Shown piece after piece: positions 8,766-11,374 of a stretch of DNA of 64,000 bases (positions are counted from its first letter, which is position 1; each line of letters begins with the position of its first letter). The translations under genes were made by a program, and so were the position numbers. Source of the stretch: an uncultured Alphaproteobacteria bacterium (GTDB lineage Bacteria > Pseudomonadota > Alphaproteobacteria > HIMB59); contig CACKEA010000002.1 in the NCBI GenBank assembly GCA_902599045.1, forward strand, positions 62,001 to 126,000. Reading direction: 5' to 3'. The notes under the pieces were generated by a model. That model made no database searches. It worked only from the letters and a program-made list of their open reading frames with translations, and was not told where the DNA came from.

Positions 8766-8826
8766 ATATTCTTTAAGATGCAGAATTTAGCTAATTAATC
8801 CAAATTTATCAACTAATTTCATATAT

Positions 8827-8855
8827 TTGTAATTATTTAAAAATAATGGTATTAA
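8827..8855 (+). promoter_or_regulatory. candidate promoter of the Cys-rich mini-gene
   Basis: TTGTAA and TATTAA hexamers are separated by 17 bases, each matching four of six consensus positions. The expected transcription start would fall at or next to the ATG at 8862, so the message would be leaderless; no Shine-Dalgarno sequence is visible. AT-rich background makes chance matches likely. Confidence 0.3.
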
Positions 8856-8861
8856 AAATTT

Positions 8862-8942
8862 ATGGATACAAATAAACCAAAACCCGATTGTGGATGTTCT
8901 TGCTCATGCTGTTGCACTTGTGGCGACGGTTGTTGTCAGTAA
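8862..8942 (+). CDS. Cys-rich mini-protein (26 aa, 9 Cys), metallothionein-like
   Basis: The short frame encodes a hydrophilic lead (MDTNKPKPD) followed by a 17-residue tail in which Cys occupies positions 10, 12, 14, 16, 17, 18, 20, 24 and 25, giving CxC, CCC and CC spacing. This arrangement is typical of thiolate metal-cluster peptides, and both TGT and TGC codons are used. Local GC content is clearly above the AT-rich surroundings, which argues for selection on the peptide. The 3' end overlaps a convergent 52-residue membrane ORF by seven bases, and the Anbu peptidase gene lies just beyond. It could be a metal-binding or redox peptide, or a substrate of the nearby ATP-grasp ligase/Anbu pair; both are inference. 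It is not related to a named family I can recall with confidence. Confidence 0.6.
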   Translation: MDTNKPKPDCGCSCSCCCTCGDGCCQ

Positions 8943-9094
8943 ATAATTTTTAATAGAACAACAATTGCTAAAATAAAACCAAATACAATATCTACATATT
9001 TACCTTTCATTTTAAACATCAAGAAAAAAGAGAATAAAGCTAAACTAATTACTATTATGCTTGCTAGATTTGCTACAAAAGGAGAGGGTTCCAT
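8936..9094 (-). CDS. small membrane protein (52 aa)
   Basis: The frame begins ATG at 9094, three bases after the Anbu stop codon, and encodes a 52-residue protein with two hydrophobic segments (about residues 7-27 and 34-51) separated by KMKGKY. A hairpin membrane topology is likely. Close spacing to the Anbu gene on the same strand suggests cotranscription. Its last bases overlap the convergent Cys-rich mini-gene. No family recognised. Confidence 0.5.
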   Translation of the reverse strand: MEPSPFVANLASIIVISLALFSFFLMFKMKGKYVDIVFGFILAIVVLLKIIY

Positions 9095-9097
9095 ATT

Positions 9098-9823
9098 TTA
9101 ATCTTCCCATTTAAAGCGATCGAAAGATTTAAAAATCTCAAAAATTCCTTTTTCCCATTGTTTTGAAATATATTGATAATCCTCATCATTGATTTCAAGA
9201 GACTGCCGATAAACTATTTTTGATAAATTATATTTATAAACTACCAAGTCGATAGGTGGGCCGACAGATAAATCTGCTTTCATTGTACTATCCATACTTA
9301 TCAAAGCACATCTGGCTGCATCACCTAAATAGGTATCTGATTTAACTACTCTATCTAATATGGGTTTCCCGTACTTAATTTCCCCAATAACAAGATAGGG
9401 TTTGAACTCACTAGACTTGATAAAATTTCCTTGGGGATAAACCAAATAAAGATCAGACTCTTGATTTTGTATATGCCCACCAACAATAAATGTTGATCCT
9501 AACTCCAGAGTTACTTGATTTATGCCATCCGGAGATGAGTGTTGAACTGTCAGTCTTCCAATATATTTTGCAATTTCATTCAGGTTGTAAAGATTATTTA
9601 AGTTATTACCGTTAGTGGGGTCTTCTAAATCTTTACCAATTGAATTAAAAACAGCTTGAGATGTTGCCAAATTACCAGATGTTAAAATAACAATATTTCT
9701 ATCAATACCATTGTGGACATACATTTTTGTGTAAGAGTTATAGTTATCTAAACCCGCATGTGTCCTTCTATCTGAGGCAAAAACCATTCCTTCATTTACT
9801 TTAATACCCACACAATAGGTCAT
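9098..9823 (-). CDS. Anbu-type proteasome-like peptidase
   Basis: A 241-residue Ntn-hydrolase of the Anbu family (ancestral beta subunit, COG3484). It starts MTYCVGIKVNEGMVFASDRRTHAG, in which Thr2 becomes the N-terminal nucleophile after Met removal and the ASDRRT Asp/Arg region is typical. The STFIVGG segment and the late GPPIDLVVY segment also match the family. Anbu rings are self-assembling; their physiological substrate is poorly known. In many bacteria the gene clusters with a COG2308 ATP-grasp ligase, an alpha-E protein (COG2307) and a transglutaminase-like protein. Here only the ATP-grasp gene is nearby, divergently transcribed. Confidence 0.88.
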   Translation of the reverse strand: MTYCVGIKVNEGMVFASDRRTHAGLDNYNSYTKMYVHNGIDRNIVILTSGNLATSQAVFNSIGKDLEDPTNGNNLNNLYNLNEIAKYIGRLTVQHSSPDGINQVTLELGSTFIVGGHIQNQESDLYLVYPQGNFIKSSEFKPYLVIGEIKYGKPILDRVVKSDTYLGDAARCALISMDSTMKADLSVGPPIDLVVYKYNLSKIVYRQSLEINDEDYQYISKQWEKGIFEIFKSFDRFKWED

Positions 9824-9897
9824 ATTTCAATTAAATAGCTTATTTCAAAAAAATACAAACGAATATTTACATATTAGCAATCTAAACAATGCATAAC

Positions 9898-9916
9898 CAG
9901 TAATTGGCAATTACTG
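9898..9916. promoter_or_regulatory. perfect 19-bp palindrome between Anbu and ATP-grasp genes
   Basis: CAGTAATTG and CAATTACTG arms flank a single central G. It lies in the 105-base divergent intergenic region, 12 bases before the GTG start of the ATP-grasp gene and 74 bases before the Anbu start. The symmetry fits an operator for a dimeric regulator controlling the ATP-grasp gene and perhaps both; it is too short-looped to be a stable RNA hairpin. No regulator gene is adjacent. Confidence 0.45.
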
Positions 9917-9928
9917 TATTTTGTAAAT

Positions 9929-11374
9929 GTGTCTATAAGCTGGAACAATTATAACTCAAAAAATAGTTATGATGAGTATCTTACGCCTGATAGAAAACTC
10001 AGAAAAGAAGCAAAAGTAATTTCAAAAATATTAAATAACTATTCAAGTAAAGATTTAGCTAGTATCGAAAACAATTGTCAAAGTACTATTAGTTCTCGGG
10101 GTATTAATTTCAAAGTTTACTCCGCCGATAAAAAAGCTGCAGAAGAAAAAAAATGGCCTTTAGATATTATTCCAAGAATAATATTAAGATCACAGTGGCT
10201 TAAAGTAAGAAAAGGACTAATTCAAAGATGTAAGGCCTTAAACCTTTTTATAAACGATGTTTATAATGATAAAAAAATATTTAAAGATAAAGTATTACCA
10301 TATGAGCTAGTTTTTGACTCAAAAAATTATTTAAAACAATGTGAGGGATTTAAACCTAAAAGAAAAATTTGGTCTCATATCTCTGGAATAGATTTAATTC
10401 GAAATATTAATGGAGAGTTTCTGGTTTTAGAGGACAACTTAAGAGTTCCTTCGGGGGTGTCTTACATGTTAGAGAACAGAATGGTAATGGGAGAGGTTTT
10501 CCCAGAACTGTTTACACGCTATAGAGTTTCTTCCATCAATCAGTATTGCAATAGATTATACCATTGTATGTTAGACGCTATTCCTTACAAAAAAAATAAT
10601 CCAACCATGGTTGTCTTAACTCCTGGAGTCTACAATTCTGCTTATTTTGAACATTCGTTTCTTGCGCAGCAAATGGGAATTGCATTGGTTGAGGGTAAGG
10701 ATTTATATGTGGAAAATGATAAGGTTTTTGTAAAAACAGTTAAAGGAGGATTGAGGGTAGATTGTATTTATAGAAGAATTGATGATACTTTTTTAGACCC
10801 TAAATCTTTCTACAAAGAGTCACTATTGGGAGTTTCTGGATTATATAAATCTTATAGGAAAGGAAATGTCGGCCTTATCAATGCCCCTGGAAGCGGAGTT
10901 GCTGATGATAAAGTTATTTATTCTTATGTTCCAAAAATAATAAAATACTATTTAGACGAAGATCCTAAGCTAAATCAAGTCGAGACTTACCTTTGTAATG
11001 AGAAAAAACAAAGAGACTATGTCATATCAAATTTATCAAAAATGATTGTTAAACCTGCAGATGGGTCGGGAGGTTATGGAATTTTAGTTGGACCCAAAGC
11101 TACAAAATCAGAACGAGATGCATACGCAAGAAAGATATTACATAGTCCTAGAAACTATATTGCCCAACCTTTGGAAATCTTATCAACCACACCCACACTT
11201 CAAGGAAATTCCATTGAACCAAGACACCAAGATCTAAGACCATTCATATTATCTGGTAAAGAGACTTATGTAACTATGGGGGGTTTAACAAGGGTTGCTT
11301 TAAAAAAAGGAAGCACCATAGTGAATAGTTCTCAAGGTGGAGGTTCTAAAGATACTATGGTCGTTGAAGATTAG
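9929..11374 (+). CDS. COG2308 circularly permuted ATP-grasp protein
   Basis: A 481-residue protein matching the COG2308/DUF404-DUF407 circularly permuted ATP-grasp family. Diagnostic stretches are YDEYLTPDRKLRKEA near 14, RGINFKVYS near 53, LEDNLRVPSGVSYMLENR near 165, VVLTPGVYNSAYFEHSFLA near 224, YRRIDDTFLDP near 280 and KPADGSGGYG near 374. The start is GTG 9929; no good Shine-Dalgarno is visible. Family members are predicted to form amide bonds on peptides or proteins together with alpha-E and Anbu proteins (prediction by Iyer and colleagues for amidoligase systems). The alpha-E partner is not in this window. Confidence 0.88.
   Translation: MSISWNNYNSKNSYDEYLTPDRKLRKEAKVISKILNNYSSKDLASIENNCQSTISSRGINFKVYSADKKAAEEKKWPLDIIPRIILRSQWLKVRKGLIQRCKALNLFINDVYNDKKIFKDKVLPYELVFDSKNYLKQCEGFKPKRKIWSHISGIDLIRNINGEFLVLEDNLRVPSGVSYMLENRMVMGEVFPELFTRYRVSSINQYCNRLYHCMLDAIPYKKNNPTMVVLTPGVYNSAYFEHSFLAQQMGIALVEGKDLYVENDKVFVKTVKGGLRVDCIYRRIDDTFLDPKSFYKESLLGVSGLYKSYRKGNVGLINAPGSGVADDKVIYSYVPKIIKYYLDEDPKLNQVETYLCNEKKQRDYVISNLSKMIVKPADGSGGYGILVGPKATKSERDAYARKILHSPRNYIAQPLEILSTTPTLQGNSIEPRHQDLRPFILSGKETYVTMGGLTRVALKKGSTIVNSSQGGGSKDTMVVED

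Follow-up and report, generated by a model that had tools for sequence, protein, structure and literature searches.

The DNA analysed here, a stretch of 64 kb that we refer to as the window, contains an open reading frame for a 26-residue peptide with nine cysteines, located close to genes for a proteasome-type Anbu protein and an ATP-grasp protein. This poses the question whether such a short frame encodes a protein at all and, if so, whether its product serves the neighbouring genes or has a function of its own. An earlier note on this DNA had offered a metal-storage peptide, a redox peptide or the substrate of a predicted tagging and ligation system.

A nine-cysteine frame in the window

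The window is part of a 1.37 Mb genome in 16 contigs. The features around the peptide are as follows.

8766..8861, + strand: intergenic region, presumed promoter of the peptide, with TTGTAA, 17 nt and TATTAA ending 6 nt before the ATG (read by eye, weak)
8862..8942, + strand: nine-Cys peptide, from the open reading frame list, ATG start and TAA stop (stop codon included in the coordinates)
8936..9094, - strand: 52-aa predicted membrane ORF, from the same list, convergent with the peptide, whose stop it overlaps
9098-9823, - strand: Anbu (proteasome-type Pfam match), following the 52-aa ORF
9929-11374, + strand: circularly permuted ATP-grasp gene, beyond Anbu

The frame reads MDTNKPKPDCGCSCSCCCTCGDGCCQ, with 9 Cys in 26 aa (35%) in CxC, CCC and CC spacing and neither aromatic residues nor His, and thus bears out the description in the earlier note. 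The GC content, likewise pointed out there, is 0.43 in the peptide ORF versus 0.30 for the whole window. No other open frame in the 64-kb window reaches nine Cys per 26 residues, and order-2 Markov simulations of the window (n=60) gave at most 7 Cys per 26-residue open frame. The nine-Cys frame is therefore beyond chance for the composition of the window. Neither a signal peptide nor a membrane segment is evident, and the product is predicted to be cytosolic. The TTGTAA-17 nt-TATTAA arrangement upstream is partly retained in relatives; a consensus promoter scan of this region returned no promoter-like site above chance. For the genus, the gene's start looks to be near-leaderless.

Distribution and conservation of the peptide gene

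The window derives from the marine alphaproteobacterial HIMB59 order, also named AEGEAN-169 (PMC10308909), a clade of abundant ocean bacteria. A profile search with the peptide found it in 110 of the 162 genomes of this order, with one copy each: 36 of the 52 genomes of the window's genus and 74 of the 110 of a sister family, where all 74 carriers belong to one genus. Single-cell genomes of uncultured Alphaproteobacteria are among the carriers, such as AG-891-G06 (L110), which has been used as a HIMB59 genome (PMC10734472). One contig scan returned 29 loci, all with the genus-type peptide, and under-reports the distribution, since the sister family carries the peptide too.

Outside the order, we found no homologue in class, phylum, virus, phage and plasmid searches. 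Across the class, a profile search covering 385 genomes returned matches at E 0.008-0.1, which on reading proved to be parts of longer frames that are unrelated. The phylum-wide DNA pattern CxCxCxCCCxC hit mainly low-complexity TGC/TGT repeats, with no evident relative, a minority of the sites having been inspected singly. Viral contigs, phages and plasmids contained no homologue. Nine peptide variants had no Pfam match at E<=10, no NCBIfam family matches the peptide, and no PDB chain does so at E 10.

The peptides of the genus follow the pattern M[DE][TNS]NKP[KN]PDCGCSC[SP]CCCTCG[DE]GCC[QSN], those of the sister family MKN[QE]NP[NE]PPKCGCSCSCCC[TA]CEG[GE][GD]CC. The core CGCSC[S/P]CCC[T/A]C is kept, and in the alignment of variants no change occurs at any of the nine Cys or at the G of CGC, whereas tail and linker vary. 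Synonymous diversity (pS 0.48 in the genus, 0.39 in the sister family) far exceeds pN (0.030 and 0.026), giving pN/pS values of 0.064 and 0.066. By codon position 1/2/3, variable sites number 2/2/22 in the genus and 3/2/15 in the sister family, so that third positions account for 22/26 and 15/20, respectively. This dominance of third positions in two separate groups indicates purifying selection at the protein level, and both the alignment and pN/pS place the Cys positions under selection. A synonymous excess with retained Cys spacing is what the earlier note had named as support for a gene, and stops, frameshifts or a lost Cys pattern in relatives as what would speak against it. There are no internal stops within the matched stretch in any of the 110 matches, and the pattern is kept. 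A damaged or shortened C-terminus was seen in two copies only. In G099 (L057, about 3990, - strand) a G run has lost one base, so that an unrelated tail stands in place of the last CC, through either sequencing error or decay, and the G482 match reaches profile position 19 only.

We are thus nearly certain that the ORF is genuine and codes for a protein. Its shortness and lack of a database family might have suggested a fortuitous open frame, but its conservation in 110 genomes from two families, at a pN/pS of 0.06, refutes this, and the chance that it holds is practically nil. A regulatory RNA in which coding is incidental, or a leader peptide acting as a cysteine attenuator, might be expected from so short an ORF with a Cys-rich run in an AT-rich intergenic position. 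Third-position changes, however, speak for conservation of protein and not of RNA; together with the absence of an Rfam match at the peptide, this codon-position pattern argues against an RNA element. A leader peptide would require a co-directional gene directly downstream, yet in both locus types, that of the genus and that of the sister family, the downstream gene lies on the opposite strand and is convergent. We therefore regard either form of this explanation as highly improbable.

The gene is also dispensable. The peptide is absent from G051 and G484, which retain znuA and murJ, and from G067, which retains Anbu and the 52-aa ORF; no remnant of it was found at the same spot in any of the three.

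Relation to Anbu and ATP-grasp

The adjacency to Anbu and ATP-grasp described in the earlier note is right for the window, where the 52-aa ORF separates the peptide from Anbu. This ORF lies beside the peptide in the genus (67-100% identity), was not found in the sister-family loci and has no family in Pfam or NCBIfam. It is probably not part of the peptide's function.

If the peptide were a substrate or partner of Anbu and ATP-grasp, the ligase would extend or tag it and Anbu would degrade it. Within the genus, adjacency and co-occurrence agree with such a system, as Anbu is found in 35 of 36 peptide-positive and in 2 of 16 peptide-negative genomes. In the sister family, however, 74 genomes carry the peptide and none of the 110 has Anbu, and ATP-grasp was not found in the four peptide carriers examined (G042, G084, G075 and G046). 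Genes are uncoupled at single loci of the genus as well. G003 (L084, L094) keeps the peptide, the 52-aa ORF and a fasciclin gene where the Anbu/ATP-grasp pair is cleanly absent, and no ATP-grasp was found elsewhere in this incomplete genome. In G007 the Anbu frame has an internal stop and ATP-grasp was not found, with the peptide intact. Conversely, G067 has Anbu, ATP-grasp and the 52-aa ORF and lacks the peptide. Physical linkage and common descent thus account for the co-occurrence within the genus. The peptide is independent of Anbu and ATP-grasp, and its co-occurrence pattern does not place it in an Anbu/ATP-grasp/Alpha-E ligation system. Distribution and locus structure largely refute the tagging substrate proposed earlier, and we consider it very unlikely.

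The Anbu/ATP-grasp pair (9098-11374) itself behaves as an accessory module, with Anbu in 37 of the 52 genomes of the genus, the clean gap in G003 and the internal stop in G007. Alpha-E is a usual operon partner of Anbu (PMC5666114). No Alpha-E was detected in the window's genome, where Anbu thus works without one of its usual partners.

A zinc-uptake neighbourhood in the sister family

In the sister family, the peptide has a different and stable neighbour. For 69 of the 74 peptide carriers, znuA was found among the matches listed, and in 69/69 of these genomes it shares a contig with the peptide, which always lies at the znuA 3' side. The distance is 45-47 bp in 22 genomes and 2.36-2.86 kb in 47; in the long-spacing loci that were read, a CobW (COG0523) gene, a WD40 protein and an 84-aa ORF lie between the two. 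At all 20 sister-family loci inspected (20/20), the peptide adjoins znuA and/or the CobW (COG0523)-WD40 genes that follow it. Peptide and znuA are convergent and do not form one operon. The other flank of the peptide is occupied by pirin in most loci and by murJ in four (L056, L059, L061, L062), so that peptide and znuA have remained linked through a rearrangement.

The genes znuC, znuB and a Zur-type Fur gene are divergent from znuA, and znuC/znuB/zur are present wherever an inspected locus extends far enough. Pfam assigns ZnuA (4e-60), ABC-3 (7e-68) and cobW (8e-59) within the cluster; the Fur-family protein has Zur as its nearest NCBIfam model at 1e-19, below the equivalog cut-off. A Zur-box-like palindrome, TGTTATAATATAACA, is located between znuA and znuC, and boxes also occur elsewhere in the genomes. 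In other bacteria too, COG0523 genes of the zinc-linked subfamily 5 are found grouped with WD40 genes and znuABC (PMC2770081). The sister-family neighbourhood is of the same type as these Zur-regulated COG0523/WD40/znuABC clusters, in which, however, a Cys-rich micropeptide is not reported in the literature searched.

The link to znuA is not obligatory, as G051 and G484 show, where znuA adjoins murJ without an intervening peptide. The gene znuA is present in 117 of the 162 genomes of the order, and zinc uptake occurs in peptide-free genomes too (e.g. G029). Within the window's genus, znu lies away from the peptide; in the window's genome the znu/zur cluster is found on another contig (L141, G000:C1 about 277-280 kb).

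Further features of these clusters deserve mention in their own right. The sister-family ZnuA proteins (L059:4130-5206, L058:4146-5285, L056:728-1951) contain very long, length-variable HDD repeats. These runs, metal loops rich in histidine and aspartate, grow and shrink from one genome to another. The 84-aa ORF (L072:4101-4355, - strand) behind CobW-WD40 carries the motif SCHEPDCPPIET, has no Pfam or NCBIfam family and is probably another zinc-related protein. At two loci of the window's genus (L151 and L161, in G017 and G004), a CobW-WD40 cassette stands on its own, away from the peptide, and a Zur-box-like site, TGTAATAATATAACA, precedes it by ~80 bp.

Regulation of the peptide gene

A search for Zur boxes in the 130 bp preceding the gene, in genus and sister family alike, gave no site that stood clearly above shuffled sequence. 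Control of the peptide through a Zur box of its own was dropped on this ground, and the peptide is not placed in the Zur regulon by its promoter. As an absence of evidence, the missing box would fit a constitutive or a metal-excess-responsive gene. A terminator consensus scan remained at chance level, and in one sister-family locus no terminator-like hairpin was seen between the peptide and the znu unit. In combination with a convergent arrangement at 46 bp, this lack of a hairpin in the scanned locus allows the speculation that read-through from the znu unit, derepressed in low zinc, silences the peptide gene.

A probable metallothionein-like peptide

We propose a metal-thiolate peptide whose main metal is zinc and which acts in the cytosol as a buffer or store similar to a miniature metallothionein, and consider this reading probable. 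In line with this, it has the low mass, the very high Cys content, the CxC and CC motifs and the lack of aromatic residues by which metallothioneins are broadly defined. The nine-Cys domain of animal metallothionein forms a three-metal, M3S9-type cluster. The ribosomally made peptide begins with a short, polar tail (MDxNKPKPD / MKNQNPNPPK), after which come the Cys cluster CGCSCSCCCTC, a short linker and a final CC. Its nine thiolates may wrap a small metal-thiolate cluster, M3S9-type for Zn(II) or else a Cu(I) cluster, and in the given spacing could hold about three divalent ions. The peptide would then buffer or store imported zinc. Metal binding, the identity of the metal as zinc and the storage or buffering role are what we infer from the conserved cysteines and the neighbourhood. 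A zinc buffer appears the most likely role because the sister-family peptide sits permanently at the end of a znuA unit with a Zur-box-like promoter.

Other metals and other uses of the thiols have to be weighed against this. Copper(I) is the main alternative metal, since all ligands are Cys and none is His, a make-up that would fit Cu(I), Cd, As(III) or redox roles equally well. In length and Cys density the peptide appears to resemble the short fungal copper metallothioneins, and the window's genus has no zinc neighbour at the peptide. A role in copper binding or in Cd/As detoxification instead of zinc is nonetheless rather unlikely in our view, as zinc-uptake genes form the one functional neighbourhood that is conserved (69/69 genomes, among the matches listed) and no copper gene was noted among the sister-family loci read. 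We rate lower still the possibility that the peptide is unrelated to metals and acts as a thiol redox or persulfide buffer, or as a reserve of cysteine or sulfur. Vicinal and CxC cysteines would be redox active and nothing in the peptide sequence demands a metal, but selection has kept the exact Cys spacing, and in the loci read the peptide is linked with zinc uptake instead of thioredoxin, glutathione or sulfur genes. The zinc-binding reading is the one we retain. Of the earlier interpretation, the metal-peptide half is favoured and the tagging-system half rejected.

Comparison with known metallothioneins

Short fungal copper metallothioneins of the Neurospora crassa type have about 25 aa, are CxC-rich and His-free and contain seven Cys. 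The peptide shares their size class and make-up but has nine Cys and a CCC run that they lack, and they are eukaryotic. MymT of Mycobacterium tuberculosis (PF10667), a bacterial metallothionein of about 53 aa, is likewise small and Cys-rich but shows no sequence match to the peptide. Its role is copper detoxification (PMC7387436).

The SmtA/BmtA proteins of cyanobacteria and Pseudomonas (PF02069) are small and Cys-rich, with CxC motifs, nine Cys and a role in zinc homeostasis, the role we propose for the peptide. The Pseudomonas protein forms Zn3Cys9His and Cd4Cys9His clusters (PMC7387436), and the M3S9-type cluster suggested here would, by analogy, be close to Zn3Cys9His. In contrast to the peptide, SmtA/BmtA proteins have about twice its length, use His as a ligand and adopt a zinc-finger-like fold; next to cyanobacterial smtA lies the divergent gene of the repressor SmtB (in part PMC7387436). 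The peptide has a CCC run, lacks His in every variant and matches no Pfam or NCBIfam model, PF02069 included, and thus lies outside the SmtA family. The earlier suggestion of a miniature metallothionein or metal store, with metal binding as its inferred part, is the best-supported reading by virtue of Cys conservation and the invariant znuA linkage in the sister family. Most likely the peptide works like a metallothionein although it stands outside that family.

Implications

We tentatively suggest, as an idea with a modest chance of being right in full, that the peptides form a new His-free, ~26-residue family of bacterial metallothioneins that serves as the zinc buffer of a low-zinc open-ocean clade and that, in the sister family, is switched against uptake by convergent, Zur-controlled znu transcription. 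If this is true, uptake on would mean storage off in the sister family. Few genetically encoded metallothionein-like proteins of bacteria would then be shorter than these peptides. Independently of function, annotation length cut-offs can conceal a gene family that is under strong selection and occurs in about two thirds of an order's genomes.

Why SAR11-type bacteria retain znuA has been left open (PMC4771312). The carriers of the peptide are abundant open-ocean heterotrophs with streamlined genomes and few accessory genes, for which zinc is scarce. If correct, our proposal would explain, in a form open to testing, how zinc is kept in such cells once high-affinity uptake has brought it in.
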